Assembly: GCF_003336245.1 (NCBI RefSeq)
Contig: NZ_QPHM01000003.1
Location: 248,001 to 312,000, forward strand
Origin: Haloplanus salinus
GTDB lineage: Archaea > Halobacteriota > Halobacteria > Halobacteriales > Haloferacaceae
Length of the DNA: 64,000 nt
Reading direction: 5' to 3'
The notes beneath the pieces were generated by a model. That model did no database searches and had not been told where the DNA came from. It worked only from the letters and a program-made list of their open reading frames with translations. Made by a program: the position numbers and the translations under genes. This document shows positions 34,545 to 51,290 of the stretch, piece after piece; within the stretch, counting starts at the first letter, position 1; each line of letters opens with the position of its first letter.

Positions 34545-36221
34545 CTATCCGATTCCAGTTTCCTTCTTCAGCAGCGTCAGTGTATTGTCGGCTGTTACGA
34601 TCGGCGAATGTTCGTACTCACCAGTCAACTCAACCTGCACGAGCAGATCGACGGCTCGCCAGATCGAGTACAGCAGACACGAGAACGCGAAGTAGAAGAA
34701 TCGAAGCCCGAAATTCTTCGACGTGGTAGCAGCCATGAAGCGTTTGATCGACTTGTATCCGCTCTCGATTTCCCACCGGTAACCGTACTCCGTGAGATGC
34801 CCGCTCCCGCAATTCGTCATAAACACCGAATACTGCCGATGGTCGTCGTACTCGGAGTCTTCTTTCCGGCGGTAGATCAGCGTGGTCTCGTGCCATTCGT
34901 TCTTCCCGAGGTGGAGCTTTCGGCCGGTCTCGTATCGGTCTTGGTCGCGCTGAAGCAGCCGCTTCGCCTGAGCCTTCTCGCTGGTCTGCATCCGCTTGGG
35001 AACGACATACGACAGGCCACGCTGGCTGAGCATCTCCAGGACGTGCTGACTGTCGAACTCCCGATCCATCAGCACGTTATCAACGTGTACCATTTCTTCA
35101 GCAGAATCCAAGAGGTCCTTGACGATTTCCAAGCGTGACTCCCCCTTTTGAACTGGCCGTGCGTCCAGTACAACCGGAACGGCGTTCCCGACTAACTGGA
35201 CGGTGGCCCACTGGTAGGCGTACTCGTCGGTGTTTTCTTTCGTTCCGATGATTTCGTCCTCGTGACCCGTGCGGTCACCGGTAAAGGGGTCGTCCTCGGT
35301 GATGTCGATCGCGACGATTCCGGCTCGAAAGAACTGCTCTGCCTCCGAAACTTCGTTTAGGAGCCGAGTGATGGCCTGCTGGTACATCGCTCGCACCTGT
35401 TCAATCGAGAAATCGCGAATCTGCTCGCGATGGGCGTGACCCAACGGTGTCCGCTCTCGAGTTGACTCGTAGGTGAAGCTACGAGCGCCCTCGTTAGCAG
35501 CCAGCCGCTCGCGAAGCCCCAGATACGTCTGTAAGTCCCAGTAGGCGTTCTCGTGGATCTCGCAGCCGTCCCCACGATCCAGCGAAAATGCCGGGAAGAC
35601 GACGCGGCTGACGTGGTCGGTAATCTTCTCTGCCTGCTCCAACGTAGTCTGATCGTCCGGGTCTGACTCACCAGACTCGCTCCCGGGGTATCGGAGCGTT
35701 CGTGCCGGTTCACGCGGAGTCTCGACACCCGCATTCTGGGCGTTGACGAGGATCGTTCGAGCCGCCGTCACGACTGTCTCCCTGAGGTCAGCGGTAAACC
35801 GCTCGTGCCAGCTTCGCCACAGTGTCGACTGGTCCGGGATCGTCCCGAAACCCAGTTGCTCGCAGAGGTCAGGACGATTCCCGAGATAGTCGACGAGTGC
35901 GGTTTCGTGCACCCATCCGTGGAGTTCTTTCAGTACGAACACCCGAAAGAGGATGTCCATCCGGTAGCGTGTTGACCCCGCATACCGGTCGTGGATGCTG
36001 AACCGGAAGTAGGCCAAGGGGAGTGCACAGACGAACTCCTCAACTGAATCATGCATCCCGTGGGCGAACCACGTTTCTGAGACTGTCCGGATATCTGATT
36101 CCAGTCCCGCCAGCGACGTTCGATCGTACAGCGGTGTCGAATCGTACACTGGCCAATCAGCGTGTGGTTGGTCGGCGATCCGTCGAAAGACGGTTGTGCG
36201 AGACTCACGAGTTGGGATCAC
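34545..36221 (-). CDS. IS4-like DDE transposase (intact copy)
   Basis: A 558-residue transposase. The N-terminal part has DSTPLYDRTSLAGLESDIRT and PDQSTLWRSWHERFTADLRE. The DDE catalytic core comprises Asp in AGIVAIDITEDDPFTGDRTG, Asp in VDNVLMDREFDSQHVLEML, and the Y-(2)-R-(3)-E-(6)-K signature in TEYGYRWEIESGYKSIKRFM. A long insertion of about 170 residues between domains is typical of the haloarchaeal group. It starts MIPTRESRTTVFRRIADQPH. A close relative at 49964-51290 shares most of the sequence but lacks the third catalytic residue. Only this copy could move both. Confidence 0.85.
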   Translation of the reverse strand: MIPTRESRTTVFRRIADQPHADWPVYDSTPLYDRTSLAGLESDIRTVSETWFAHGMHDSVEEFVCALPLAYFRFSIHDRYAGSTRYRMDILFRVFVLKELHGWVHETALVDYLGNRPDLCEQLGFGTIPDQSTLWRSWHERFTADLRETVVTAARTILVNAQNAGVETPREPARTLRYPGSESGESDPDDQTTLEQAEKITDHVSRVVFPAFSLDRGDGCEIHENAYWDLQTYLGLRERLAANEGARSFTYESTRERTPLGHAHREQIRDFSIEQVRAMYQQAITRLLNEVSEAEQFFRAGIVAIDITEDDPFTGDRTGHEDEIIGTKENTDEYAYQWATVQLVGNAVPVVLDARPVQKGESRLEIVKDLLDSAEEMVHVDNVLMDREFDSQHVLEMLSQRGLSYVVPKRMQTSEKAQAKRLLQRDQDRYETGRKLHLGKNEWHETTLIYRRKEDSEYDDHRQYSVFMTNCGSGHLTEYGYRWEIESGYKSIKRFMAATTSKNFGLRFFYFAFSCLLYSIWRAVDLLVQVELTGEYEHSPIVTADNTLTLLKKETGIG

Positions 36222-37021: not shown

Positions 37022-37300
37022 CTATCGGGTGGGACGGCGGGTCAAGGACGCTAGAATGAACAGCAGGCCGCTCGAAACGATGAGCGCCTGCATGATCGCG
37101 GCCGACTGGAGGGAGGTTCCGAGCAGGCGGTAGATGAGCCCCTCACAGATCGTCCCTACGCCGATGAACACGAAGCCCACCGCGACGTAGAGCATCGGCG
37201 CACTTTCGTTTCGCCGATAGCCGTGATACGCGAGATAGGCGACGACCAGACTCAAAACGAGGGTTATCAGCTTGACGATCAGCACCGGGGGAGCGATCAT
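37022..37300 (-). CDS. Small three-helix membrane protein (DUF7521-like)
   Basis: A 92-residue protein from the ATG at 37300, which overlaps the stop of the regulator gene (ATGA). Three helices: VLIVKLITLVLSLVVAYLAY, MLYVAVGFVFIGVGTICEGL, and AAIMQALIVSSGLLFILASL. It has the same helix pattern as the protein at 22224, and likewise is coupled to a winged-helix gene. It presumably partners with that regulator at the membrane. Confidence 0.65.
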   Translation of the reverse strand: MIAPPVLIVKLITLVLSLVVAYLAYHGYRRNESAPMLYVAVGFVFIGVGTICEGLIYRLLGTSLQSAAIMQALIVSSGLLFILASLTRRPTR

Positions 37301-37650
37301 CGATCCTCTCGCATGTTCGTCCACAGCGAGGTGAACTTGTCCGCCAGTTCGTCCCGTGTCTCCACCGACAGCGAGAGTTCGCCGTCGGACACCGCGACGT
37401 GGAGTTCTTCGAGCGTCGTTTCGAACTGGCTTCGGTGCTTGCCGTCGGCACCGACGGTCGAGTGCTCTCGGATGAGGTCGTACTCCTGCAGCGTCGACAC
37501 CCGACGATAGATAGTCGTGAGCGAGGCATCACAGATGTCACTGAGATCTTTCGCCGTCCGTGGCTCCTGGTCGGCCGCGAGGAGGATCCGTCGCGAGTAC
37601 TCGTCCGCGAGGACTTGAAACACTGTCACGTCGATCTCGCCACGTCCCAT
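37297..37650 (-). CDS. Winged-helix transcriptional regulator
   Basis: A 117-residue protein from the ATG at 37650 (MGRGEIDVTVFQVLADEYSR). A single ArsR-like winged helix: RRILLAADQEPRTAKDLSDI, CDASLTTIYRRVSTLQEYDL, IREHSTVGADGKHRSQFETT. A C-terminal strand and helix (LEELHVAVSDGELSLSVETR) follow. The in-frame extension upstream of 37650 is not conserved-looking. Downstream it is coupled to the small membrane protein. It lies divergent from the CxxC membrane protein at 37772, so it might control that gene (inference). Confidence 0.7.
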   Translation of the reverse strand: MGRGEIDVTVFQVLADEYSRRILLAADQEPRTAKDLSDICDASLTTIYRRVSTLQEYDLIREHSTVGADGKHRSQFETTLEELHVAVSDGELSLSVETRDELADKFTSLWTNMREDR

Positions 37651-37771
37651 ACATCTATTCACGAGTGCGACTGTCAAAGTAGCGGCGGTTCGACCTGTCG
37701 TGCCGGGAGCCTCCCGGCGTAGATAGCTGTGCGTCGTTTGCACAATCGTGTAAACTGTCACCGTCATTTTG

Positions 37772-38236
37772 ATGATCGAAGACAGATCGATCGGCGTGTT
37801 CTCCGCACGACGCTGTCTCGCGACCGCCTCGCTCGTCGGCGCCGGGTCGTTCGTCCTCTTCGGCGCCGTGACGGGGCTACTCCCGAATCCGATCTACATC
37901 CGGCAGGTCCCACGGACGCCACTCGACTACCTCTTTCTCGTCCTCACCGCCGGATTTCTCGGCGGCTACACGCTACAGCGGACTCCCGACGGGGTGAACG
38001 ACGATGGAGCGGCGACGGCGAGCGCTGCCGTCGGATTCCTCGCGTTCGGCTGTCCGATCTGTAACGCCGCGTTGCTCGCACTGTTCAGTAGCTCCACGCT
38101 GATGACGTATTTCGACCCACTTCGGCCGCTGCTGGGCGCCGTGAGCGTCGTCCTCTTTTGCTGGTTGCTCTACGCCCGTTCTCGCCGCGGGTGTGACGAC
38201 TGTGCCGGGAGCCGGCCGGGGTCGCGATTCGGGTGA
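37772..38236 (+). CDS. Membrane protein with a CPIC motif
   Basis: A 154-residue protein from the ATG at 37772. Four helices, with the motif GFLAFGCPICNAALLALFSS, then LMTYFDPLRPLLGAVSVVLF and a C-terminal CDDC. The cysteine pair at the membrane face is followed by a small-residue helix and a YF-x-PLRP turn. The same order (GCASCGAG, AMPFDGNLLRLGG, final C) is seen in the protein at 38445, so the two are related. Position beside a DsbA-like gene and the cytochrome c maturation set suggests thiol-disulfide relay or metal handling; direct evidence is lacking. Confidence 0.6.
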   Translation: MIEDRSIGVFSARRCLATASLVGAGSFVLFGAVTGLLPNPIYIRQVPRTPLDYLFLVLTAGFLGGYTLQRTPDGVNDDGAATASAAVGFLAFGCPICNAALLALFSSSTLMTYFDPLRPLLGAVSVVLFCWLLYARSRRGCDDCAGSRPGSRFG

Positions 38237-38444
38237 CCCGCGCACGGCCGGCACGTCTCATACGTGTCGACGGACTCGGATGCCAGCCGGGGCGGGGGCG
38301 AGCCCCCACCGGCTACTCCTCGGCATCGGCGGCGCCCGGCGCCGGTCCCGTTCGGACCCACGTCTCGGCCGACGCCCGGTGTGATGTGGCTGTCGACCCG
38401 GTATCGGACCGGGTCGCGTCCCCGTGAGGATCGAGGCGGATCGG

Positions 38445-38990
38445 TTACGCCTCCTCGCCCGTCGGCGCGAGCTCGCATCGACGGGGATGCCCGGTCCGCG
38501 AGAGATAGCCGACGAGGAGGACGAGACCGCCGAGACGGAGCAGATTCCCGTCGAACGGCATCGCGGCGAGTGCGCCGACGAGGCCGAGTAGCCCGAGGAC
38601 GCCCGCCCCACAGCTCGCACAGCCGGACGCGACGAGTCCGGGGAGAACGCTCCACAGATCCCAAGCGCCGGTCGAGCCGGCGTCGCGAACCCGTGCGACG
38701 GTGGTCGTGAGCGCGACGCCGGTCGCCACCGCGTAGACGACGATCAGGCCGAGACCGACCCCGCCGACCGTCCGGTACGTGTTCGCGGTGAGGGCGAGAA
38801 GTGCGTCGGCGGCGTAGCCGGGCCCGGCCCCGAGCATCTGCATCGAGTACGTCGGGAACGTACTCAACACCAGGACGCAGTACGTCGCGACGGCAAAGCC
38901 CGTCGTTGCGAGCGTTCGGCGAGCGGTCGTGAACGGGTAGCCGACCGCGGCGAGCAACCGAGAGACGTGCGTGGCGAGCCACGTCGTCAT
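38445..38990 (-). CDS. Membrane protein with a CASC motif, paralogue of the 37772 protein
   Basis: A 181-residue protein from the ATG at 38990. About five helices: LATTGFAVATYCVLVLSTFP, VGGVGLGLIVVYAVATGVAL, then PGLVASGCASCGAGVLGLLG, ALAAMPFDGNLLRLGGLVLL and a tail ending HPRRCELAP. The CxxC pair at the end of a helix mirrors the protein at 37772. Its ATG overlaps the stop of the DsbA-like gene, so the two are translated together, which supports a shared redox function outside the cell. The 208 bp between this gene and 38236 hold no gene. Confidence 0.65.
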   Translation of the reverse strand: MTTWLATHVSRLLAAVGYPFTTARRTLATTGFAVATYCVLVLSTFPTYSMQMLGAGPGYAADALLALTANTYRTVGGVGLGLIVVYAVATGVALTTTVARVRDAGSTGAWDLWSVLPGLVASGCASCGAGVLGLLGLVGALAAMPFDGNLLRLGGLVLLVGYLSRTGHPRRCELAPTGEEA

Positions 38991-39724
38991 GCGTTCCGCA
39001 CCCTCGAGATAGCGGTGTCGAAGCGGTCGGACGGCTGGGCGCCGACGAGTTTCCCCGCCGCTTCGCTCGTGGGATCGTAGATGATGAAGGCCGGCGAGCC
39101 ACGGATTCCGAACGCGGTCGCCCGCTCGATGTCGGTGCGAATCGACGACTCGATTTCGCGTCCCCGTTGCCGCATACAGGTGTCGACGGCGGCGGCGTCG
39201 ACGTCGTCGACTCGACTCGTTATCTCCAGGAGGTTCGACCGGGATGCCCATCCCGATCCTTTCTCACCCTGTGCTTCGAACACCGCCGAGTGCCACGGCC
39301 AGTACCGAGACGGGTCCGCCTCGCGCACCTGTCGCCAGACACACCGATCCATCACGGCCGCCGTCATCGACGCCTCGCCGAGATACGGATACTCGATGAA
39401 CGCGATGCGAACGGCCCCCGTTCGGACGTGTGCTTCGATGAGCTCAGGGAGGGTGTTCCGCTCGAACCGCCGGCAGAAGGGACACTGGTAATCGCTCCAG
39501 TAGTAGATATCGAGCGGCGCGTCCGGCGCCCCCATGATCGGGTGGCCCGCCAGGTCGATTCCGAAGCCCGTCGATCGCGAACTCCCGTGAAACGGCACGG
39601 TCGTCAACGTCGTCGACCCGGCATCGAGGCGAGAGGCTCCGTAGACCACGCCCCCACCGGCAAGCGTCGTCCCGATACCGCCCAGTACCGCACGGCGTGT
39701 CACGAGCGAGTCCGGTCGGTCCAT
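38987..39724 (-). CDS. DsbA-family thioredoxin-fold protein, Tat-exported
   Basis: A 245-residue protein from the ATG at 39724. A twin-arginine signal (LVTRRAVLGGIGTTLAGGGV) is followed by a DsbA-like domain. The active site is IYYWSDYQCPFCRRFERNTL (Cys81, Cys84). A helical insert carries MDRCVWRQVREADPSRYWPW, and the cis-proline strand is FGIRGSPAFIIYDPTSEAAG. Such proteins oxidise or isomerise cysteines of exported proteins. Because cytochrome c maturation needs reduced CxxCH motifs, an oxidase of this type usually works with a CcdA/thioredoxin pathway, also encoded nearby. It is coupled to the CASC membrane protein. Confidence 0.8.
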   Translation of the reverse strand: MDRPDSLVTRRAVLGGIGTTLAGGGVVYGASRLDAGSTTLTTVPFHGSSRSTGFGIDLAGHPIMGAPDAPLDIYYWSDYQCPFCRRFERNTLPELIEAHVRTGAVRIAFIEYPYLGEASMTAAVMDRCVWRQVREADPSRYWPWHSAVFEAQGEKGSGWASRSNLLEITSRVDDVDAAAVDTCMRQRGREIESSIRTDIERATAFGIRGSPAFIIYDPTSEAAGKLVGAQPSDRFDTAISRVRNA

Positions 39725-39784
39725 ACGGTATACGCGGCGGACGGACAGTAAATGACGTTCGGCGATATGCCGAGTCTGAAAACG

Positions 39785-40056: not shown

Positions 40057-40496
40057 GGGACGACACCGATCCAGCAGGCACGGCCGCTCCCGACCCGACC
40101 GAGGCAGTCGGTCCCGAATCGAGCGACGCCCCGGCACCCGACCCGTCCGAGCACGCGGCCCCCGACCCGACCCCGTCGTCGCCGGGCCGGCGCCCGACTC
40201 CGAAGACTTACTCGCGGAGGCGATGGGTGGATCCGAAGGCGGCGAGCAGCCGCCAGCCCCCAGCCGACGAGTCGCCGACGCCCGACTGGGACACCGCCGC
40301 GGCGTCCGAGCCGGCGCCAGACCGCAGTTCTGAGGCCGATACCGAGCGGACCACCCTTCGGATCACCCGCGATGTCGGCGAGATATTTAGTGTCGACGAA
40401 CGGGAGTACGACCTCGCCAGCGAGGACGTGGTGACGCTCCCGACGCCGAACGCCGAGCAGCTACTCGATCGGGACGCCGCCGAACGGCTGGACTAG
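40057..40496 (+). pseudogene. C-terminal fragment of a GINS replication-complex subunit
   Basis: The plus strand carries a Pro/Asp-rich linker (PDPTEAVGPESSDAPAPDPS) and then TERTTLRITRDVGEIFSVDE, REYDLASEDVVTLPTPNAEQ and LLDRDAAERLD at the stop. This is the conserved B-domain end of haloarchaeal GINS proteins, which bind the CMG helicase. The N-terminal A domain is missing, and upstream in frame the sequence is the complement of the AAA fragment. A truncated open frame could be translated from an internal start but would not be a functional GINS. Confidence 0.65.
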
Positions 40497-40538: not shown

Positions 40539-41786
40539 CTAGTCGTCGCGGGAGAGCAGGCGCGGGCCGAGGAGTCCGACAACCACCATCCCGGCGACGG
40601 CACCGAGGATCGACAGCCCTGGGAACGGCGGGATGGAGGCACCGGCGGAGGGCTCCGTCTCCGCCACGGCGTCGCCCGTGCCCGCGACCGACTCGCTCCC
40701 GCTGGACGCACTCGCGCCCGTCGCGTTCTGCGTGCGTGCGCCGTCGAGGTCGAACCGAACCGTCTCACCCGCCTCGATAGCCCCGTCGGAGGTGAGCAGT
40801 GGGATCGGCGCCTCCCCGAGGCGGAGGTTCTCGGAGCGGTCGACCGCGTTCGGGTCGTACCCCTGCATAACGATGGCGAGCGACCGCGTGTCCCGAAGCG
40901 GCGCCGTCTCGATCTGCGTGCCGTCGAGGTCGGCGGCGACCCCGACCCGTGTGGTGCCGTTCGCGGGAACGGAGACGTTGACCCTGACGCCGGCGTCGGT
41001 CCGCCGGTACTCGGCCGTTTGTCCCCCTGCCATCGCCGCGTACGGCGTGGCGTTTGCCGGCACGGGGAGTTCGACCAGCCCCATGAACGGCCGGTCGGTC
41101 GGGTTCCGGAGGGTGATCGTCTTGATCACGCTCGGCACGGTCGTCTCGTTCGCCGGCGGCACGACCTGCAACACGTACGGCGTCTGGCTGTCGTTGGCGA
41201 CCCGAAGAACCGATTCGTCCGTGGTCGGCGGGCGTGCCACGAGGGCGGCGGTCCCGTTTCCGGACGCTTCCACCGTCGTCCGGTAGCCGACGCCGCCGAC
41301 GGTCGCCCGGACGCGATAGGTCTCCGTCGATTCGACCGGGGCGACCGTGAACCGGCCGTTGCCGCCGGTTTCGGTTTCCGTCACGACGAACCCTCGATCG
41401 TCGATCACTTGGACGGGGACGCCGGACAGCGGCGTTCCCGACGCGTTCGTGACGCGCCCGTTGATCGCTCCCGAGAGGCTGATCGACGCGCTCGTGGTGT
41501 TCCGAAGCACCTCGTAGTGGGTCGTGTTGCCGTACGCAACCCGGACAGCGTACGCCGACGCCTCGTCGACGTCGACCGAGAACGACGAGCCCCGCACCGT
41601 CGTCCGTGCGGGTGTGCCGGCGCGTTGCTGGTTCGCGGTGACGGGGACGACGGTCACTTGCGCCCCGTCGGCGCTGCCGCCGTCGACGGTGACGGTTCCG
41701 GAGACAGATACCGTCGACTGTGCCGTGGCGGTCGGGACGGCGGCGATACAGGCCACCACGACGACGAGCGCGAGGAGCCGGTTCAT
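40539..41786 (-). CDS. Secreted Ig-like/carboxypeptidase-regulatory domain protein with C-terminal membrane anchor
   Basis: A 415-residue protein. A signal peptide (LLALVVVVACIAAVPTATAQ) precedes a beta domain (VSVSGTVTVDGGSADGAQVT). A CarboxypepD_reg-type repeat follows (GAINGRVTNASGTPLSGVPV, GGNGRFTVAPVESTETYRVR), then a third beta domain. A Ser/Thr linker and helix (FPGLSILGAVAGMVVVGLLG) end it. Its ATG overlaps the end of ccmF, so it belongs to the cytochrome c maturation operon. It lacks a CxxC motif, so it is not a conventional CcmH, but by position it could take a chaperone role for apocytochrome. Function is inferred only from context. Confidence 0.7.
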   Translation of the reverse strand: MNRLLALVVVVACIAAVPTATAQSTVSVSGTVTVDGGSADGAQVTVVPVTANQQRAGTPARTTVRGSSFSVDVDEASAYAVRVAYGNTTHYEVLRNTTSASISLSGAINGRVTNASGTPLSGVPVQVIDDRGFVVTETETGGNGRFTVAPVESTETYRVRATVGGVGYRTTVEASGNGTAALVARPPTTDESVLRVANDSQTPYVLQVVPPANETTVPSVIKTITLRNPTDRPFMGLVELPVPANATPYAAMAGGQTAEYRRTDAGVRVNVSVPANGTTRVGVAADLDGTQIETAPLRDTRSLAIVMQGYDPNAVDRSENLRLGEAPIPLLTSDGAIEAGETVRFDLDGARTQNATGASASSGSESVAGTGDAVAETEPSAGASIPPFPGLSILGAVAGMVVVGLLGPRLLSRDD

Positions 41787-44185
41787 CAGTCCGCCACCTC
41801 CGGACTCGTATCGCGGGCCGCCGCCCGGATCGCCGTGTCGGTCACCGCGCCGTGGCGCGGGTCGAAGAGGGCGACGAGGCTCATCCCGAGAAGCAGCGCG
41901 ACGATGGCGACCCGCATCAGCGTGACGAACGGCACCTGCTTGACCGTGATCGAGGCTGTGCCGTCGCTGACGCCCGCGATGACGTACGTATCGGTGACGA
42001 GGCCGCGGTCGATGACGACATCCCTGACCTGCATCCCGCCCTGTTCGGGGTAGCGCCGTTGTCCGGCGATTCCGGACGCACGGAGTCGATCACCTTCGTA
42101 CACCGCGAGCGAGACGCCCTCCGCGACGACACGAGTCGGGACGACATTCTCCGGTGGGTCGGCCGTCGGCCCGACCGTCTCCGCCCTCGCGAGGACGACG
42201 GCGTCCGCGCTCGGCACGAAGTTCCACATCAGGCGTCCTCGAGCGACGATTCGCTCGCCGGTCGTCGCCGGAGTCGCCGTCCCGTTGCCGGCGAGACCGA
42301 CCCAAACGCTCGATCCGTCGAGTTGGACGACCGTCGCCCGCGGGCCTTCGCGGATGTCTGTCACCGTCCCGTGGACCGTCTGAACGGAGCCGTTCAACGA
42401 GGAGCCGCGCCGCACCACCTGATCGGTCGAGAGCGCGTACGTCCCGACCGCCGGATCCTGCGGGAACTCGGTTCGGGAGTGACCGAGGACCCGCACCGAG
42501 TAGTCGGAGCCGGGAACCGCCTGCCGGGTGGTGTCCATCGATCCGTCCCCGACGCCGGTCGCCATCACGGACGCCTGACCGGCCAGCACGTACATGAACG
42601 GCAAGGAGAGGACGAGAAGCGCCGCACCGACGTGGATGAGAGTGATCCCCGTCTCCTTCAGTTTCGCGTCGCGGGACGCCGCCGCCCGGATACGGCCGCC
42701 GGTCCGTTTCACCGTCCCGAGGATGGCGTAGGCGACCGGTGGCAACACCGACGCGGCGCTCGCCGATCCGACGAGCTCGTAGACGAGGGCGTCGTTCGGT
42801 CGCGTCGACGCCAGTTGCCACGTCTCGGACGGGAAGACGAACGCGCCGACGATAGTCGCAGCGGTGAAGACGCCGAGTCCAGCGAGCGCCCGCGTGCGTC
42901 CGTCGGCATCGTAATCCATGTAGAACCCGAGGAGCAGGAGGAGTCCGAGGACGAGCGGGTAGCTCCAGAGGTTGTAGTAGCGCGCCTCAACCGAGACTTC
43001 GAGTCCGGTGATCGCGTTTCGCAAGAGCGGGAAGGAGAGCCCCCAGAGCGAGACGAACGTCAAGAGGCCGAAGCCGAGGACGGCGAGGTGAACGAGATTC
43101 GCGCGGCGGAGCCACCGGTCGTCGCCACCATCTCCGTCCCCGTCGTCCGTTTCGAGGAGCCAGTAGGTGACCGGGAGGACGACGCCGAGCGCGGCGGTCA
43201 GACCCATGAGAACGAGGAAGGCTGCACCGATGCCGCCGTCGGCGAACGAGTGGACGCTTCGGAAGACGCCGCTTCGGACGACCGACGTGGTGTACACCAC
43301 GAGCGCGAACGCCGTCGCGGTCATCGCCGGAGCGAGGACGCGATAGCGACCGGTCGGTTCGTAGGCAGTGACGGCGTGGAGCGTCGCGGTCAGGAAGAGC
43401 CACGGGATGAGAATCGCCGTCTCCACGGGGTCCCACGCCCAGATGCCGCCCCACCCGAGGACCGTGTACGACCAGAGACCACCGAGCGCGACGGCGGCGG
43501 TCAGGAACAGCCAGCTCAGGCGGAGCCAGCGCGTGACGCTCCCGTGCCACGTCGGAAAGACGCCGCCGTTCCCGCGGAACAGCGAGACGAAATGCGCCGT
43601 CCCGATGGCGAACGGCATCGCCAGTAGCGCGTAGGATATGAACATCACCGGCGGATGGATGGCCATGTAGGGATCGACCAGGAGAGCGTTCAACCCCTGC
43701 CCCGATGTCGGCACGAAGCCCGGCGGGGCGCCGGGGAATGCCGTCCGAATCGACGCGAACGGGCTCTGCGCCAGCAGCATGCCAGTGAAATACGCGACGA
43801 GACCAAGGGTAAGACCGTGGACCAGTTTCGCGTGTTGGTCGGAGATGCCGCGAACCGCCCCTGCGATCATCGCCACGATCGAGACGATAGCCGCCCACAG
43901 CAACACCGACCCCTCGTTGGCGGCGTAGACGCCCGTTATCCGGTAGAGCAGCGGCAGGTAGGATGCGGTGTTCTCCCAGACGTAGGCGTTCGAGTAGTCC
44001 GTCGTGACGAACTGGTACGTGAGATGAAGCAGCGCCGAGACGAGCAACACGGCAGCCGCCGCGGTGAGTTTCGGGACGTACTCGACGCCCGCGTCGTCCT
44101 CGGCAGCGTAGGCACGACCCAGAATACCGACTCCCGACAGCGCCGCACCGAAGGCCAGTCCGAGCAGGACCGTTCCGACGTTCAT
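41786..44185 (-). CDS. ccmF: Cytochrome c heme lyase subunit CcmF
   Basis: A 799-residue polytopic protein. The diagnostic WWD-type heme-handling segment is VLGWGGIWAWDPVETAILIP at about residues 240-260. Conserved histidines lie in the flanking helices (VDPYMAIHPPVMFISYALLA; LTATLHAVTAYE). About fourteen helices are expected, plus a long extracytoplasmic C-terminal domain with strands. CcmF takes heme from CcmE and, with CcmH in bacteria, attaches it to CxxCH motifs. It sits between the anchored thioredoxin (ATGA overlap upstream) and the 415-residue secreted protein (overlap downstream). The strand opposite carries a long spurious open frame. Confidence 0.92.
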   Translation of the reverse strand: MNVGTVLLGLAFGAALSGVGILGRAYAAEDDAGVEYVPKLTAAAAVLLVSALLHLTYQFVTTDYSNAYVWENTASYLPLLYRITGVYAANEGSVLLWAAIVSIVAMIAGAVRGISDQHAKLVHGLTLGLVAYFTGMLLAQSPFASIRTAFPGAPPGFVPTSGQGLNALLVDPYMAIHPPVMFISYALLAMPFAIGTAHFVSLFRGNGGVFPTWHGSVTRWLRLSWLFLTAAVALGGLWSYTVLGWGGIWAWDPVETAILIPWLFLTATLHAVTAYEPTGRYRVLAPAMTATAFALVVYTTSVVRSGVFRSVHSFADGGIGAAFLVLMGLTAALGVVLPVTYWLLETDDGDGDGGDDRWLRRANLVHLAVLGFGLLTFVSLWGLSFPLLRNAITGLEVSVEARYYNLWSYPLVLGLLLLLGFYMDYDADGRTRALAGLGVFTAATIVGAFVFPSETWQLASTRPNDALVYELVGSASAASVLPPVAYAILGTVKRTGGRIRAAASRDAKLKETGITLIHVGAALLVLSLPFMYVLAGQASVMATGVGDGSMDTTRQAVPGSDYSVRVLGHSRTEFPQDPAVGTYALSTDQVVRRGSSLNGSVQTVHGTVTDIREGPRATVVQLDGSSVWVGLAGNGTATPATTGERIVARGRLMWNFVPSADAVVLARAETVGPTADPPENVVPTRVVAEGVSLAVYEGDRLRASGIAGQRRYPEQGGMQVRDVVIDRGLVTDTYVIAGVSDGTASITVKQVPFVTLMRVAIVALLLGMSLVALFDPRHGAVTDTAIRAAARDTSPEVAD

Positions 44186-44664
44186 ATCGACCCACCCGAG
44201 GCGTAGCGTTGCTCGGCCGCGTCGAGGTAGGAGAGGAAGTCCTCGGTCCCGGCGTAGCCGTTGACCCGAACGAGCACTTCGCCGTCAGGCGTGATGATGA
44301 CGTGCTGGGGAGGGTAGTTGATGTTGTACTCCCGTTGCATCCGGCCCGACTCGCTCCCATCGTCGTCCAAATTCACCGCCACCTTGACGAAGTCACCGAG
44401 TTCCGACTGCACCGCCGGGTCGGCGTACACCTCCCGGTTGTAGTCCTCACAGTAGGTACACCACGTCGTCCAGAAGTAGACGACGATGGGTTTCCCCTCG
44501 GCTGCCGCAGTCTCCTCGGCGGCCGTCACGTTCGTCTGCCAGCGCGTGTCCCCGTGATACGAGTAGTTCTCGTCGCTCAGTGTAGGTGCTGCATGCATCG
44601 AAAAATACCCAATACTGAGCAAGACCACGAAGAAGGCGAGCGTCATCGCCTTTCGAGGCTTCAT
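44182..44664 (-). CDS. Membrane-anchored thioredoxin-like protein (CcmG/TlpA role)
   Basis: A 160-residue protein from the ATG at 44664. An N-terminal anchor (AMTLAFFVVLLSIGYFSMHA) is followed by a thioredoxin fold: KPIVVYFWTTWCTYCEDYNR (Cys69, Cys72), then FVKVAVNLDDDGSESGRMQR, and the cis-Pro region NINYPPQHVIITPDGEVLVR. Such proteins keep apocytochrome CxxCH cysteines reduced, taking electrons from CcdA. It is the first gene of the ccmF operon, and its stop overlaps the ccmF start. Upstream in-frame sequence before 44664 is the divergent promoter, not coding. Confidence 0.85.
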   Translation of the reverse strand: MKPRKAMTLAFFVVLLSIGYFSMHAAPTLSDENYSYHGDTRWQTNVTAAEETAAAEGKPIVVYFWTTWCTYCEDYNREVYADPAVQSELGDFVKVAVNLDDDGSESGRMQREYNINYPPQHVIITPDGEVLVRVNGYAGTEDFLSYLDAAEQRYASGGSI

Positions 44665-44987
44665 TGGTGACCGGCAGTAACGGCTTCCCCTAGTAAAACC
44701 TACTGTCTCGTCCCTCGATCTGAAAAACTCGAACTGTGCCGAGGGACGTATAGATGCCCGATAAACCCGGAATTCGTCGATCTCCAGTTTCGACTGCCCG
44801 CCGATCGTCCGCGACCAAATCGACTCCGTTTTTCGCAGCGAGAAAAGACACCAAGAGTATTTATAGGATCGAATCTCGCCGAGACAAACGGAGAAAGTTT
44901 TATAATGTGTGTGTAGACATAGCGAATTACTGCGCACAAGCGGAATACAGATATGATAGGTACATTGGATCGGTCGACGGAACACGC
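44665..44987. promoter_or_regulatory. Divergent promoter region between the ccmF operon and the diheme cytochrome gene
   Basis: The 323 bp are AT-rich. CTATAAATACTC, read on the minus strand at about 44850-44862, is a good TATA box for the thioredoxin-ccmF operon. AGTTTTATAATG at about 44896-44907 is a good one for the cytochrome gene at 44988. No gene is supported here. Shared control of the cytochrome and its assembly genes from this region is likely. No clear operator repeat was found. Confidence 0.6.
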
Positions 44988-46454
44988 ATGAGTCGGGGAG
45001 ACTCGACTCGCCCGAGTGGGGGGGATTCGACGCTCCTGCTCAAGCCCGCGCTTCTCGTCGTCGGGACGGTGGTTGCCGCCGTCGTCCTGGTGTTCGCCCT
45101 CAACGGCGTTCTCGCGTACCTCGGTGTCGGTGCGGTCGGTCCCGGGGCGCCGGCAGCCCAAACCGGCGGTCAGCCGGCGGCTGCGAGCAACGCCAGCGGC
45201 GGCAGTAGCGACAGCGGCGGTGCCGCCGATACTGGCGGCGTTCGAGCGCTTCCGGCGACGTTCAGCGGGCAGAAGTGGTACAGTGAGGACCTGCGCGACC
45301 AGGAGTTCGACTACAAGGATCCGAACGCGGGCGATGAAGTCAAATTCCAGCCCAAGAAAATGAACAACTCGACGTTGCCCGACAACGAGAAGCGGGCCGA
45401 ACTCGTCCGAGAGGGGCGCAGCCTGTTCGCCAACACCTCGGAGGAGATGCCCGAACACGTCGGCAACGACCTGTCGTGTGCGAACTGCCACGGCGGTGGT
45501 GACCTGCCGACGACTACCGGGATGGTCGGGCAGGATATCGACATGATCCCGCTGGTCGGCACCGCCGCGGGCTACCCCGAGTGGACGGGCCGCACCGAGC
45601 GCATGCGCGACATGCGCCAGCGGATCATGGGTTGCTTCCTCCGGAGCATGAACTCGCCCGGCTCCGCGGAGGGTATGCCCGCCTACGACAGTCGCGAGAT
45701 TCAGGCCATGGAGTCGTACATGGTCTGGCTGAACAAGGGTACCCCGAGCCAGCGAACGCCGTACTGGCGCCACATCGAGAAGCCGGAAGGTGACGAGAAG
45801 GTGCCGGTACCCGAGGTCAACCCCGTCCGCGGGGCCGAACTCTACCTCGAAAACTGTGCGTCCTGTCACGGCGCGGACGGACAGGGTATCGAGGGGCAGT
45901 ACCCGCCGCTGTGGGGTGAAGGTTCCTACAACGACGGCGCCGGTATGGGGCGGATGTACACCTCCGCCGGCTTCATCCGCGAAGCCATGCCCTACGGCGC
46001 GGGACACACGTTCTCGAACTGGGAGGACGTCCACGACGTCGCCGGGTTCATGAACGCCCACAAGCGGCCGCACCTGCCGCGCCAGCCCAAAGACTGGGCC
46101 GTGTCGGGTGCCCCCGACGAGGGCATCTACTACGACCGCGTCCAGCAGCGGCACGGATACGACATGAATCCGATGACGAAGAAGCTGATGCTGGCGGGCA
46201 TCCCCATCGACGACTCGGAGCTCACCGCGGAGATGATCCCGGAAGACACGAGTCGGTACGACCAGCCGCTCCGTAACGAGTCGGTCGACGGCTCGTGGCA
46301 GACCACTTGGATCCGGACGTACGAGAACGTCGGGAACGAGACGGCGACGAACGCGACGGCGACGAATACGACGGCCTCGAACCAGTCGGCGATCACGCCG
46401 CAGGCTGCGGTCACGTCGGCGATAGCGGAGGAGGAGTCGTACGCGGCCAGCTGA
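44988..46454 (+). CDS. tsdA: Membrane-anchored diheme cytochrome c, thiosulfate dehydrogenase (TsdA)-like
   Basis: A 488-residue protein. One N-terminal helix (PALLVVGTVVAAVVLVFALN) and a Gly/Ser/Ala linker to about residue 85 hold two c-type heme domains outside the cell. Heme 1 is LSCANCHGGGDLPTTTGM (Cys164, Cys167, His168), with PLVGTAAGYPEWTGRTERMR and then RQRIMGCFLRSMNSPG. Cys216 falls 48 residues after the heme His, where TsdA enzymes place the unusual Cys axial ligand. Heme 2 is LYLENCASCHGADGQGIEGQ (Cys290, Cys293, His294), then YPPLWGEGSYNDGAGMGRMY. TsdA joins two thiosulfates into tetrathionate or does the reverse. The C-terminal tail is rich in NxT sequons. Direction and substrate remain to be shown. 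Confidence 0.8.
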   Translation: MSRGDSTRPSGGDSTLLLKPALLVVGTVVAAVVLVFALNGVLAYLGVGAVGPGAPAAQTGGQPAAASNASGGSSDSGGAADTGGVRALPATFSGQKWYSEDLRDQEFDYKDPNAGDEVKFQPKKMNNSTLPDNEKRAELVREGRSLFANTSEEMPEHVGNDLSCANCHGGGDLPTTTGMVGQDIDMIPLVGTAAGYPEWTGRTERMRDMRQRIMGCFLRSMNSPGSAEGMPAYDSREIQAMESYMVWLNKGTPSQRTPYWRHIEKPEGDEKVPVPEVNPVRGAELYLENCASCHGADGQGIEGQYPPLWGEGSYNDGAGMGRMYTSAGFIREAMPYGAGHTFSNWEDVHDVAGFMNAHKRPHLPRQPKDWAVSGAPDEGIYYDRVQQRHGYDMNPMTKKLMLAGIPIDDSELTAEMIPEDTSRYDQPLRNESVDGSWQTTWIRTYENVGNETATNATATNTTASNQSAITPQAAVTSAIAEEESYAAS

Positions 46455-46479
46455 CTTGCCGCACCGAACTACGGACTAA

Positions 46480-47160
46480 ATGCTCGAGACACCCTCCACG
46501 GTCGCGGTCTTTTTCGCCGGCGTCCTGACGATACTGACACCGTGCTGTCTACCGATGATCCCCGTCCTCGTCGTCGGCGCGAACGGGCACCGTCTCCGCC
46601 CGGTCCTCATCGTCGCAGGCAGTACGATGACCTTCACCGCGCTGGGCGTGGTGACGGGGTCGGTCGGGTCGATAACGCCGGAGACGATCCGCGCCCCGTT
46701 CGCCGTCCTCATGCTCGCGTTCGGAGTCGTGCTCGCGGACGACGACGTGAACGCGGTGTACAGCCGGTACGCCTCGCGGCTCGCCGGGCGGGCGACAGCC
46801 CTGACTGGGCGGGTCGACGAGGACCGCCACCCGCTCGCGAACGCCTTCGTGGTCGGCCTGTTGCTCGGCGTCATCTGGCTGCCCTGTGTCGGTCCTGTTC
46901 TCGGCGGCGTCCTCGCGTACGTCGGCTCGACCGCGGGCATCGTCGGCGGCGCCGGCCTCCTGTTCACTTACGGCGTCGGCTTCTCGCTACCGCTACTCGG
47001 GGTCGCCTACGCCGGCCGGTCGGGCGGACGGCGACTGCTCGACTGGGAGCCCGGGGAGGGCTTCCGAACCGCCACCGGGTACGCGTTCGTCCTGCTCGGA
47101 CTGGCCGTTCTCTTCGATATCGACAAACTCGCGCTCGCGTCGCTCACGGACATGCTCTAA
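46480..47160 (+). CDS. ccdA: Thiol-disulfide transporter CcdA
   Basis: A 226-residue protein with six helices and the two cysteine sites of the CcdA/DsbD beta domain: VLTILTPCCLPMIPVLVVGA (Cys22/23) and LLLGVIWLPCVGPVLGGVLA (Cys136). It moves electrons from cytoplasmic thioredoxin to the extracytoplasmic thioredoxin-like protein, which in turn reduces apocytochrome cysteines. It follows the TsdA-like gene by 25 bp and precedes ccmC by five bases, so the plus-strand operon is tsdA-ccdA-ccmC-ccmD. Confidence 0.9.
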   Translation: MLETPSTVAVFFAGVLTILTPCCLPMIPVLVVGANGHRLRPVLIVAGSTMTFTALGVVTGSVGSITPETIRAPFAVLMLAFGVVLADDDVNAVYSRYASRLAGRATALTGRVDEDRHPLANAFVVGLLLGVIWLPCVGPVLGGVLAYVGSTAGIVGGAGLLFTYGVGFSLPLLGVAYAGRSGGRRLLDWEPGEGFRTATGYAFVLLGLAVLFDIDKLALASLTDML

Positions 47161-47165
47161 TAGCC

Positions 47166-47933
47166 ATGCCTACAGATCAACGAAACGAACGGAACCGATC
47201 ACGGTCGAATCGCTTCAGTGCCGCGCGGATCGTCGGCCGAATCACTGGGATACTCCACCGTGTCACGCGGAGCCGAGCCGTGAAGTGGGGGACGTTGCTG
47301 TTCGGCACGCTCTCGTTTGTCCTAGTGTTTGGCTACGCATCGAAGACGATGTACGGCATCGAACACGGTGGTAACCTGATCGCCTACTGGCACATCGCTC
47401 TCGCGTGGGTCGCCTCGGCGGCGCTCGGCACGACGTTCGTTGGGAGTGTACTCTTCCTGCGCTATCGGGGGCACTTCTGGAGCCGCCTCGCCCACAGCGC
47501 CGGGGAGCTCGGCTTCCTCTTCGCGACGCTGACGCTCCTGCTAGGGAGCGCGTGGGGGAAAGTCATCTGGAACTCGTGGTGGGAGTGGACGGACGTTCGC
47601 CTCGTCACCTTCCTGATCGTGTGGTTCATCTACGCGGGCTATCTCGTGGTGTCGTCGGCGACGGACCCGAACACGGGTGACCGCTACACCGCTGTGTACG
47701 GCGTCGTCGGCTTCGTCACGGTGCCTATCTCCTACGCCTCGACGCGGCTGTGGACGCCCACTTTCCACGAGACGACCATCGGGAATCCGGAGGTCAGTGC
47801 GAACATCGACCCGACGACGCTGCTCGTGACCGTCGTCGCGGCAACGTTCCTGTACGTCTACCTTCTCGGCGTCCGGATCCAGGTGCACGAAGTCGAAGAC
47901 CGTCTCCGCGGACGCACCGGTGGGAGGAGGTGA
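47166..47933 (+). CDS. ccmC: Heme exporter/handling protein CcmC
   Basis: A 255-residue protein. After a basic N-terminal tail there are six helices with the CcmC tryptophan-rich heme motif KVIWNSWWEWTDVRLVTFLI. Flanking histidines lie in LIAYWHIALAWVASAALGTT and RLWTPTFHETTIGN. CcmC loads heme onto CcmE outside the membrane. It is shorter in the motif than CcmF, and the two are distinct here. It starts five bases after ccdA. Its stop TGA is embedded in the ribosome-binding site of ccmD. Confidence 0.88.
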   Translation: MPTDQRNERNRSRSNRFSAARIVGRITGILHRVTRSRAVKWGTLLFGTLSFVLVFGYASKTMYGIEHGGNLIAYWHIALAWVASAALGTTFVGSVLFLRYRGHFWSRLAHSAGELGFLFATLTLLLGSAWGKVIWNSWWEWTDVRLVTFLIVWFIYAGYLVVSSATDPNTGDRYTAVYGVVGFVTVPISYASTRLWTPTFHETTIGNPEVSANIDPTTLLVTVVAATFLYVYLLGVRIQVHEVEDRLRGRTGGRR

Positions 47934-47935
47934 TC
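47926..47935 (+). promoter_or_regulatory. Full-length Shine-Dalgarno for ccmD overlapping the ccmC stop
   Basis: GGAGGTGATC is an exact ten-base complement of the anti-Shine-Dalgarno 3' end of archaeal 16S rRNA. It lies with the GGAGG core seven bases before the ATG at 47938 and contains the ccmC stop codon. It decides the start of a gene too small to be called confidently from length alone. Confidence 0.75.
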
Positions 47936-47937
47936 GT

Positions 47938-48054
47938 ATGGAACCACTGCTTCTGTTCGGCTACACGGCGTTGTTCGTCGCGTTCTTCGGGTACGCGGCG
48001 TATCTCCAGCACAAGCTGAGCCGCGTCGAGCGACGACTGAACGACCTTCGCTAG
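47938..48054 (+). CDS. ccmD: CcmD-like micro-membrane protein
   Basis: A 38-residue protein: MEPLLLFGYTALFVAFFGYA, then AYLQHKLSRVERRLNDLR. One helix followed by a basic amphipathic tail is the CcmD plan (short N-terminus outside, helix, charged cytoplasmic tail with an LxxVExRLxxL-like coil). CcmD joins CcmA, CcmB and CcmC and is needed to release heme-loaded CcmE. The gene is preceded by a perfect ribosome-binding site. Its stop lies five bases from the 3' end of the convergent ccmB gene. Confidence 0.8.
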   Translation: MEPLLLFGYTALFVAFFGYAAYLQHKLSRVERRLNDLR

Positions 48055-48059
48055 GCCGG

Positions 48060-48734
48060 CTACTCCTCGACGACGAAATCGAACGTGGCGAGGCCCGCAA
48101 GTAACAGGACCGCGGTGTATATGACGAGCAGACGGAGCCACGACCCGGTCGGAGCGCCCGCCGTGAGCGCCGCCGTCAGTTCGACGCCCGCGAGCAGCAC
48201 GGGGACGACGAGCGGAACGAGCAACAGCGGCAAGGCGAGCTCGTCGAGGCCGGCGCGGAAGGTGAGCGTCGCGACGACGACGCCGACGGCAGCGAATCCG
48301 ACTGCCGCGACGGCGAGGACGCCGAGCAGGGCGAGCGCCGTTCGGAGCGTCGGGGCGTAGCCGAGCAACACTGCCGTCGCCCCGAGTGTCAACACGTTCA
48401 CGGTGAAGACGAACAGCGACGTGCTCGTCACTTTGCCCAGATAGATGGCGGATCGGTCCACTGGTGCAAGCAGGATGCCGTCGAGGGCGGCGTCGTCGTC
48501 CTCGACGGTAGCCGTCTTCGTCACGCCGAGTGTCCCGCCGAAGACGAACGCGATCCAGAGGGCGCCCCGGCCGAGTACCGCCGGATTCCGGAAGGTTTTG
48601 ACGAAGCTGAACGCGAAGGCGAGGACGATCAGTAGGGCGAACATCGCCATCGTCGTCGTGACGCGTCGGGAGCGGCTCTCGATGCGGAGATCCTTCCGGA
48701 CGATTCGGAAGACGGCGGCGAGAAACGACCTCAC
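48060..48734 (-). CDS. ccmB: Heme ABC transporter permease CcmB
   Basis: A 224-residue protein with six helices. It begins MRSFLAAVFRIVRKDLRIES and contains the CcmB signature stretch KTATVEDDDAALDGILLAPV followed by DRSAIYLGKVTSTSLFVFTV. The second half has ALPLLLVPLVVPVLLAGVEL. With CcmA it forms the ABC module that powers release of holo-CcmE. Its ATG overlaps the ccmA stop by four bases, so the order of translation is ccmE-ccmA-ccmB. Confidence 0.88.
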   Translation of the reverse strand: MRSFLAAVFRIVRKDLRIESRSRRVTTTMAMFALLIVLAFAFSFVKTFRNPAVLGRGALWIAFVFGGTLGVTKTATVEDDDAALDGILLAPVDRSAIYLGKVTSTSLFVFTVNVLTLGATAVLLGYAPTLRTALALLGVLAVAAVGFAAVGVVVATLTFRAGLDELALPLLLVPLVVPVLLAGVELTAALTAGAPTGSWLRLLVIYTAVLLLAGLATFDFVVEE

Positions 48735-49492
48735 CGGTCGAGGCCCTCGTTCGATCCGTTGTCGACGCCGATCGTCCGGCGGTACGTCGTTTCGAACGCC
48801 GCTGCCGACGTTTCGCCGAGGTCGACATCCGCCCGTAGCCGGCCGCGGTCGACGACGAGTGCCCGATCACACCGACCGACTCCCCGGTCGAGGTCGTGAG
48901 TCGTCAGGAGGACGGTCCGGTCGTCGAACCCGTCCAGGATCGTCGCGAGGTCGGCCACGGACCGCTGGTCGAGGCCGGCGTACGGTTCGTCGAGCAAGAG
49001 TACGTCGGGACGGTGAAGGAGCGCGCGGGCAAGCGACAGCCGTTTGCGGAGACCGTGTGAGAACGCCCCGGGGTACTGACTCGTCCGTCCGCCCAGGTTC
49101 ACGGCGTCGAGTACCGCCTCGCAGCGCGCCGCGGGGTCATCGACTCCGTGGAGATCGGCGTGAAATCGGAGGTTCTCGCGCGCGCTGAGGTCGTCGTACA
49201 GCATCGACTCGTGAGTCACGACGCCGACCGTCCGGTGGACGCCGTGGTCACCGGGCACGAGTTCCGCGCCGCCGAGGGTGATGGTTCCGCTCGACGGGCG
49301 GGCGAGCCCAGCGAGCATACGCAGGAGGGTCGACTTGCCGGCCCCGTTCGGGCCGAACAGGCCGACCGTCTCGCCCGGTTCGACGGCGAACGAGACGCCA
49401 TCAACGGCCGTGACCCGACCGTACACCTTCGTCACGTCGTCGGTTCGTACCGCCGACGGCGCCGTGGGATCCGATCGGGCGTCTGCCGTCAT
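48731..49492 (-). CDS. ccmA: Heme ABC transporter ATP-binding protein CcmA
   Basis: A 253-residue ATPase. Walker A is GLFGPNGAGKSTLLRMLAGL. The signature is FSHGLRKRLSLARALLHRPD, with FSHGL in place of LSGGQ. Walker B is VLLLDEPYAGLDQRSVADLA, and the switch His is in VLLTTHDLDRGVGRCD. Short length and position between ccmE and ccmB identify it as CcmA rather than another ABC ATPase. It overlaps both neighbours by four bases. Confidence 0.88.
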   Translation of the reverse strand: MTADARSDPTAPSAVRTDDVTKVYGRVTAVDGVSFAVEPGETVGLFGPNGAGKSTLLRMLAGLARPSSGTITLGGAELVPGDHGVHRTVGVVTHESMLYDDLSARENLRFHADLHGVDDPAARCEAVLDAVNLGGRTSQYPGAFSHGLRKRLSLARALLHRPDVLLLDEPYAGLDQRSVADLATILDGFDDRTVLLTTHDLDRGVGRCDRALVVDRGRLRADVDLGETSAAAFETTYRRTIGVDNGSNEGLDR

Positions 49493-49863
49493 CGAGTGTC
49501 GTCCGGACGCTCGGAGCCCTCGTGGGCACGGACCGAGAGCTGTTTGGCGACGAGTCTGTCACCCTCGACCTGCCCTTTCGCGACGACGATCCGGCCCTCG
49601 GCCATCGTGTCCGGGAGCGTCCCCTCGTAGACGACGGTCATCGAGTGGTTGCCGTCGGTCACCTCGAATGTCGCCGTCCGGCCCCCCGTCTCGAGGTTCT
49701 GCACCGATCCTTCGAGGTTCACCCACTCACCCTCGTACTCGTCCTCGGAGAGTTGTGTCGGACTCACGAACGCGGCGGAGGCGTTCATGCTCGTCGCGCC
49801 CAGCACACCCAGGAGCGCGAGGATTGCCACCGTCGTGACGAGAAGTTTGTTCTTCCGTCGCAC
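49489..49863 (-). CDS. ccmE: Heme chaperone CcmE
   Basis: A 124-residue protein from a GTG at 49863 (RRKNKLLVTTVAILALLGVL anchor). It is followed by a small OB-like beta barrel: WVNLEGSVQNLETGGRTATF, EVTDGNHSMTVVYEGTLPDT, AEGRIVVAKGQVEGDRLVAK. CcmE binds heme covalently through the His of an HxxxY motif near the C-terminus. The equivalent region here is LSVRAHEGSERP: the His is present, but the Tyr position is Glu. Neither a Cys variant nor another His nearby is seen. It is the first gene of the ccmE-ccmA-ccmB operon. About 100 bp upstream lies the broken end of a transposon, so its promoter was nearly lost. Confidence 0.8.
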   Translation of the reverse strand: MRRKNKLLVTTVAILALLGVLGATSMNASAAFVSPTQLSEDEYEGEWVNLEGSVQNLETGGRTATFEVTDGNHSMTVVYEGTLPDTMAEGRIVVAKGQVEGDRLVAKQLSVRAHEGSERPDDTR

Positions 49864-49963
49864 TACGCTCGTATCGTATGCCGGCGCTCTTGATTGTGTC
49901 GGATGGTTTCCGACCGCTGCCGGTGAGAGCCGTGCGTGCCCCGTCCACGACCGTCCGCCAGCC

Positions 49964-51290
49964 ACTCATTGTCGTCGAGATGCAGTTTTCGATCAGTCTC
50001 GTAGCGGTCCGTTCCCTTCTTGAGGGGCCGTTTCGCTTGCGCTTTCTCACTCGTCTGCATCCGCTTCGGGACGACGTAGTACAGCCCGCGCTGGCTGATC
50101 ATCTCAAGGATATGCTGGCTATCGAACTCCCGATCCATCAGCACGTTATCGACATGAACGAGGTTCTCAGCCGAATCAAGCAAGTCCTCAACGATTTCCA
50201 GTCGTGTCTCCCCCTTCTGGACGGGGCGCGCATCAAGCACGAGTGGAACGGCGTTCCCGACCAACTGGACTGTCGCCCACTGATAGGCATACTCGTCGGT
50301 GTTCTCTTTCGTCCCGATAATTTCGCCCTTGTGGCCCGTCCTATCGCCCGTGAAGGGGTCGGCTTCGGTGATATCGATCGCGACGATCCCTGCGCCGAAG
50401 AACTCCTCCGTCCCCGCGACCTCGTCGATGAGTTGCCGAACCGCCTGGCGGTACATCTCGCGAATTTGCTCGATAGAGAGATCACGAATCTGGTCGCAAT
50501 GGCCGTGCCCGAGTGGTGTTCGATCACACGTCGACTCGTGAATGAAGCTCCGAGCGCCCTCGTTGGCGGCCAAGTTCTCACGGAGCCCTAAGTAGGTCTG
50601 TAAGCCCCAGTAAGCGTTCTCGTGAATCTCACAGCCCTCACCTCGATCCAGTGAGAACGCCGGGAAGACTACGTGACTGACGTGGTCCGTAACTGTTGCC
50701 GCTTCGTCAAGGACAGCTTGCTCGTCCAGATCTGATTCGTCCTCTTCGTCACCGTGAGATGGGAGGTGCCGTTCTGGTTCGCGCGGAACGGCGACATCTG
50801 CGTTCTGGACTTTAATGAGTATCGTCCGCGCGGCTGTCTCGACTGTATCGCGAAGCTCGGCAGTGAACCGTTCGTGCCAACTGCGCCACAGCGTCGACTG
50901 GTCCGGGACACTTTCTAATCCCAACTGCTTGCAGAGTGCTGGACGACACTCGAGATACTCGATCAGCGCGGTTTCGTGGGCCCATCTCTGGAGTTCTTTC
51001 AGCAAGAACACGCGAAAGAGCGTGTCTATCTCGTAGCGAGTCGACCCCACGTAGCGGTCGTGGGTGGCGAATCCGAAATACACCAACGGGAGTGCACAGA
51101 CGAAGTTCTCCACCGACTCGTGGCGATTATGCTTGAACCAAGTTTTCGAGACTACCCTAATATCAGACTCCAACCCGTCAAGCGAGCTTCGCTCGTACAA
51201 CGGCGTCGAATCGTACACTGGCCAATCAGCGTGTGGTCGGTCGGCGATCCATCGAAAGACCGTTATGCGAGACTCACGAGCTGCAGCCAC
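49964..51290 (-). pseudogene. IS4-like transposase, 3'-truncated copy
   Basis: The frame matches the transposase at 34545-36221 over its first about 440 residues (DSTPLYERSSLDGLESDIRV; PDQSTLWRSWHERFTAELRD; AGIVAIDITEADPFTGDRTG; VDNVLMDREFDSQHILEMIS). Similarity ends after LHLDDNEW at about 49964. The remaining open frame to 49863 is the leader of ccmE. The third catalytic residue (the YxxRWxIE block) is lost, so the copy is dead. The two copies differ at many positions and are diverged relatives, not a recent duplication. Confidence 0.85.

Follow-up and report, generated by a model that had tools for sequence, protein, structure and literature searches.

A TsdA-type diheme cytochrome c forms a conserved unit with its own System I maturation genes in haloarchaea

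The window analysed here is a stretch of 64,000 nt from Haloplanus salinus (assembly GCF_003336245.1, contig NZ_QPHM01000003.1, positions 248,001–312,000), and all coordinates below refer to it. It contains the gene for a TsdA-type diheme cytochrome c of 488 amino acids (44988–46454, + strand) surrounded by genes for System I cytochrome c maturation (Ccm). On the same strand the cytochrome gene is followed by ccdA (46480–47160; PF02683), which encodes a thiol-electron transporter, ccmC (47166–47933; PF01578 and TIGR01191) and ccmD (47938–48054), the frame MEPLLLFGYTALFVAFFGYAAYLQHKLSRVERRLNDLR immediately 3′ of ccmC. The ccmD product is a single helix of 38 residues that is assigned by its position and form, and its counterpart in Halobacterium noricense is annotated as CcmD. 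The opposite strand carries the heme chaperone gene ccmE (49489–49863; PF03100), ccmA (48731–49492; TIGR01189, 133.9 bits against a cut-off of 131.6) and ccmB (48060–48734; PF03379). It also encodes a CcmG/ResA-like membrane-anchored thioredoxin with a CTYC motif (44182–44664), matched by the Thioredoxin_2, Thioredoxin_7 and Thioredoxin_8 families and more weakly by DsbE and ResA, and the heme lyase CcmF (41786–44185; PF01578, PF16327 and the NrfE/CcmF models), whose translation includes WGGIWAWDP. The reading frame of ccmF overlaps by one base that of a further minus-strand gene (40539–41786; PF13620), for which we have coined the name CcmX. Its product has a leader, three beta-sandwich regions with a CarboxypepD_reg-like middle domain, and a C-terminal membrane helix. 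The genes and strands proposed in the first-pass annotation of this DNA agree with the profile matches and translations. The interval it gave, 44182–49863, holds genuine members of the island, but the full conserved unit extends over 40539–49863, and both CcmX and ccmF, the latter named in that annotation, fall outside the narrower limits.

The family assignment of the cytochrome is based on phmmer, PF21342, PF00034 and conserved residues. Searched against solved structures with phmmer, the protein matches Allochromatium vinosum TsdA (AvTsdA) at 3.6e-39 and TsdBA (5lo9) at 1.1e-37, and the hits that follow, all at 1e-5 or poorer, are to ordinary cytochrome c domains. The start codon at 44988 is consistent with the homologues, and a longer frame from 44754 is unnecessary. 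From the N-terminus the domain order is a membrane helix, a Gly/Ser linker, a SoxA/TsdA catalytic domain (PF21342, residues 162–253) and a class I cytochrome c domain (PF00034, residues 281–354), and both domains align to AvTsdA. From the sequence, heme 1 is predicted to be bound at C164–H168 with Cys216 as a ligand, and heme 2 at C290–H294 with Met334. Both TsdA heme domains, and a cysteine (Cys216) 48 residues after the first heme histidine (His168), had been proposed in the initial annotation and are present as described; the alignment predicts that Cys216 is close to the heme-1 iron. In AvTsdA, thiosulfate is held by Arg109, Arg119 and Ser127 (precursor numbering) and Cys123 is a heme ligand (PMC4423706). 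These residues correspond, in a gap-free alignment, to R202, R212, S220 and C216, which together with M334 and the checked heme cysteines are invariant in 34 of 34 distinct haloarchaeal proteins. The Arg109 position of TsdA is frequently Lys, and Ser127 is invariant across TsdA and missing in SoxA (PMC4423706). The heme-2 Met of TsdA is likewise strictly conserved, while the neighbouring Lys position is variable and influences the reaction bias (PMC5146829). The haloarchaeal proteins have Ala or Ser in place of this AvTsdA Lys (Lys208).

In trees of 45 and 47 rows the haloarchaeal proteins form a single group (support 99/98) among bacterial TsdA, with SoxA distant, and the 44988–46454 product is therefore placed with TsdA rather than with SoxA or other cytochromes c; with few bacterial rows (plasmid records and two structures), long branches and a midpoint root, the exact sister is unsure. 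That an enzyme of the SoxA type, loading thiosulfate onto a carrier protein, is encoded here is highly improbable. PF21342 spans both families, the protein matches the SoxA model TIGR04484 at 1.1e-10, and a structural similarity of haloarchaeal homologues to SoxA is mentioned by Kletzin et al. (PMC4429474). However, the match reaches 41.2 bits against a model cut-off of 110, the protein has the TsdA-specific Ser220 and an electron-transfer domain of the TsdA type, SoxX and SoxYZ genes are not in the unit, and in the tree the SoxA of P. versutus falls well outside the group. A TsdA-fold cytochrome that has changed its substrate (to another thiol, sulfite or a polythionate), or that serves mainly in electron transfer, would fit the long haloarchaeal branch (1.88 changes per site) and the C-terminal extension, which is conserved (invariant positions from D369 to P427) and lies past the region matched to AvTsdA. 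This too seems unlikely, as all side chains that contact thiosulfate in AvTsdA are kept in each of the 34 proteins, and retention of Cys216, Arg202, Arg212 and Ser220 is not what one would expect of a pure electron carrier.

The conserved residues and gene content make it probable that the cytochrome acts outside the cytoplasm, anchored in the membrane, as a thiosulfate dehydrogenase/tetrathionate reductase of the TsdA type, and that its gene is accompanied by a dedicated System I set. Several results weigh against this assignment. No other thiosulfate or tetrathionate genes are found inside the conserved unit, and genes for TusA, DsrE and rhodanese-MBL proteins are close to it in three genomes only. 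Such genes are common in haloarchaea, and their proximity argues weakly for sulfur chemistry. The AlphaFold model of the cytochrome, built with 14 sequences, all of them haloarchaeal, had a pLDDT of 36.7 and was discarded. Finally, a search of the genome for CcmH with PF03918 gave zero matches up to an E value of 1, so that heme attachment cannot follow the complete E. coli scheme. CcmH, a partner of CcmF in bacteria, is missing in most archaea (PMC4429474), so its absence here does not exclude System I.

The System I components present at the locus are CcmA, CcmB, CcmC, CcmD, CcmE and CcmF, and one CcmF and one CcmC were found in the genome. In the CcmE proteins of haloarchaeal islands the His of the VRAHEG stretch is kept and the Tyr at +4 is missing, so that there is no HxxxY motif. 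Variants of HxxxY are known in System I, and CcmE of other archaea carries a CxxxY motif; the haloarchaeal stretch fits neither HxxxY nor CxxxY. The cytochrome had been described at the outset as the only one of c type in the unit. This holds, and it is also the sole cytochrome c match in the genome, a statement that covers three Pfam families (PF00034, PF13442 and PF03150) without a whole-proteome CxxCH scan. PF03150, the MauG/CCP diheme peroxidase family, is matched neither by this cytochrome nor elsewhere in the genome.

The association of the cytochrome with Ccm genes was examined in a sample of 392 genomes of the order, of which 25 have a strong cytochrome homologue and 39 have CcmE (genomes, loci and host families are denoted below by G, L and f numbers). 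CcmE occurs in all 25 cytochrome-bearing genomes and in 14 of the 367 without the cytochrome (Fisher p 7.5e-30, a value that overstates independence since the surveyed genomes are kin), and both genomes with two cytochromes also carry two CcmE. Strong homologues were not found outside the order in a phylum-wide sample of 393 genomes. The comparison of gene content took in 27 loci found by the genome search, together with 13 named loci. The three blocks cytochrome–ccdA–ccmC, thioredoxin–ccmF–CcmX and ccmE–ccmA–ccmB recur around almost all homologues, differing in relative order between loci; the exceptions are G011 (a fragmented assembly), G051 and G203 (a contig end). Thus the initial proposal that the cytochrome lies inside its own System I island extends to its homologues, which in the sampled genomes of the order all occur with CcmE and nearly all share the gene set.

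In twelve of the 14 genomes that have CcmE and lack a TsdA-type cytochrome, genes for a MauG-type diheme cytochrome and for a molybdopterin oxidoreductase are found close to the ccm genes. In G148 the molybdopterin gene is present and the MauG gene was not found within the fetched stretch. The remaining genome, G155, has multiheme cytochromes, and its locus (L115, 6328–13839) encodes an eight-CxxCH protein, a four-CxxCH protein, an Fe–S protein and an NrfD-like protein with ccm genes; Kletzin et al. were aware of no haloarchaeal multiheme cytochromes (PMC4429474). In the MauG-type islands (L107–L113, L116–L120 and L096) a PF00174 molybdopterin oxidoreductase is beside ccmE, and CcmF and CcmC are of a separate lineage. 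Trees of CcmF and of CcmC each separate a TsdA-type from a MauG-type group (SH-aLRT 86–100, midpoint root). Host families f1, f4 and f7 contain both types of cargo, and the split follows cargo, not family. One genome, G051, has both. Its TsdA unit (L095) has its own ccmF, thioredoxin, CcmX and ccdA, while ccmA, ccmB, ccmC and ccmE were not found there and are carried by the MauG-type island (L096) ∼164 kb away. This arrangement points to a lyase part that is specific to its cargo and to a heme-delivery part that two cytochromes can share, and G051, with two CcmF, two cytochromes and a single ccmA/B/C/E set, is a natural test of cargo-specific lyases.

CcmX follows the same division: all 27 cytochrome loci have it and all 13 MauG-type loci lack it. 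In 26 of 26 cytochrome loci it is the direct neighbour of ccmF and points in the same direction. The copy in the window has no CxxC motif. Its AlphaFold model (pLDDT 80.9) shows beta-sandwich domains followed by a C-terminal membrane helix, and fold comparison likens the middle domain to those of the CnaB/transthyretin type and the domain after it to the N-terminal domain found in M1 aminopeptidases and ribophorin. An assignment of function from the fold was rejected, since these matches are widespread beta-sandwich domains that name no function. As a tentative conjecture, favoured here, CcmX might hold the unfolded diheme apocytochrome by CcmF, as a new cargo-specific part of the heme lyase that replaces CcmH/CcmI; each haloarchaeal Ccm set might then be the private assembly line of a single cytochrome, having evolved for it and being transferred together with it.

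The position of the unit was compared in genomes of the same genus. In three congeners (G370, G394 and G293) it lies immediately past the stop codon of a GINS-like gene, and five others (G367, G393, G392, G395 and G398) lack the unit and have these flanks directly abutting; the inserted length in G370 is ∼9.4 kb. In the present genome the unit is on a 409-kb contig, and in G396 it is at another chromosomal place. Both copies carry a 3′ piece of the GINS-like gene, and a fuller copy of that gene is present elsewhere on the chromosome. In the window this piece, the Gins51 C-terminal domain, lies at 40139–40496 on the + strand (PF22090, under the curated cut-off, with an approximate start of homology). 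Its last 156 bases are 89.1% identical to the genome's own chromosomal copy and equally to G370, which does not point to either as the donor. In the present genome the GINS-like site on the chromosome is followed, within 60 bases, by a stretch of ∼23 bases (in L135, 9562–9618) that matches the left end of the island at 21 positions and was unseen in the other GINS regions fetched. Though short, this stretch suggests that the site once held a copy of the island that has since been deleted. Duplicate islands occur in two genomes, one of which has a copy on a separate 115-kb contig, and a single plasmid of Halobacterium noricense bears two islands.

The patchy presence of the unit might instead be that of an old, non-mobile island shared by descent and lost many times independently. 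The cytochrome tree, which largely keeps host families together (the f7 and f4 groups), and the lack of a recombinase gene in the island are consistent with this view. It is nevertheless an improbable account, given that within one genus three genomes have the unit at the site and five have the site vacant, that in two genomes the unit is elsewhere with the GINS-like fragment attached, a relocation that counts against it, and that one of the duplicates is on a separate contig. Our results support joint inheritance and transfer of the cytochrome and its Ccm lineage as a unit of ∼9.4 kb whose history includes gain, loss and movement between replicons. Without a recombinase gene in the unit, homologous recombination or transfer of a larger replicon is likelier than self-mobility. 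The first-pass view that the trait can move as one piece thus stands on the empty sites, the relocation and the duplicated islands, but gains nothing from the adjoining transposase gene, a truncated copy common only to the closest relative. Genes for DDE transposases flank the island at 34545–36221 and 49863–51290, with 76.6% DNA identity over the shared part. A composite transposon as the carrier was rejected, as the two have diverged, the second is truncated, and neither adjoins the island in the congeners except G396. A ParA-like ATPase, recognized by eye, and the following gene are found at 10166–11640 and fit the contig being a separate replicon.

A gene for a halocyanin-like copper protein is near 9 of 27 cytochrome units, in several shortly past ccmC or ccmD, and halocyanin is possibly the electron partner of the TsdA-type cytochrome. 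Adjoining the island in the window (37297–39760) are genes for a DsbA-like protein, a small membrane protein and a helix-turn-helix (HTH) regulator. Relatives of these genes are beside the island in L089 and L094, and partly so in L088, which suggests that an accessory module for thiol redox recurs with the island.

We propose that CcdA would hand cytoplasmic electrons to the thioredoxin, which would hold the CxxCH cysteines reduced, while CcmABCD would load heme onto CcmE and CcmF, probably with CcmX, would attach the two hemes to the cytochrome. Thiosulfate would then be bound at heme 1 by Cys216, Arg202, Arg212 and Ser220, two thiosulfates being interconverted with one tetrathionate via a cysteine S-thiosulfonate, and heme 2 (His294/Met334) would relay electrons to an external carrier, which may be halocyanin.

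The protein resembles A. vinosum TsdA (4v2k, 4wq7) and TsdBA (5lo9) in its two-domain diheme architecture, catalytic Cys, Arg, Ser and heme-2 Met. It differs from them in its membrane anchor, linker, C-terminal extension and the Ala/Ser for Lys208, and its locus in that TsdB is not seen and an own Ccm set is adjacent. Compared via the published description, Campylobacter jejuni TsdA also has the conserved heme-2 Met and is missing the Lys immediately before it, but has Asn there where the haloarchaeal proteins have Ala or Ser (PMC5146829). The Ala or Ser makes a Campylobacter-like bidirectional enzyme plausible, without deciding the direction. The MauG-type islands (cluster 29 of Kletzin et al.) are similar in that a diheme cytochrome adjoins its own ccm genes, and differ in having a PF03150 cytochrome and PF00174, no CcmX, and a separate CcmF and CcmC lineage. 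In E. coli, NrfEFG and CcmF provide the example of a heme lyase dedicated to a single cytochrome. The separate TsdA-type and MauG-type CcmF groups are comparable, although in haloarchaea the entire Ccm set, not the lyase alone, moves with the cargo, and CcmH is not found.

The pairing of a TsdA homologue with ccm genes was already published in 2015 by Kletzin et al., who described haloarchaeal thiosulfate dehydrogenase homologues, operon-like with ccm genes in five species, and MauG-type cytochromes in other haloarchaea (PMC4429474). For Haloferax volcanii they reported an absence of Ccm genes (PMC4429474). Their cluster 28 comprises proteins of 368–485 amino acids, for which a bacterial origin by horizontal gain was proposed (PMC4429474), and is the likely counterpart of the present family. 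The main text does not contain active-site conservation, a fixed gene set, CcmX, cargo-specific Ccm lineages or insertion sites, and no later studies of the family were found in the open literature, the scope of our search. To this the present analysis adds a check of the active site, Ccm lineages specific to their cargo, CcmX and evidence from insertion sites. For haloarchaea, the locus offers a candidate for tetrathionate/thiosulfate chemistry that can be put to the test, and it is a clear example of an enzyme that travels with the machinery for assembling its cofactor. Where a genome has just one cytochrome c and one Ccm set, it provides a simple natural system for studying the role of each Ccm part, including CcmX and the absence of CcmH.

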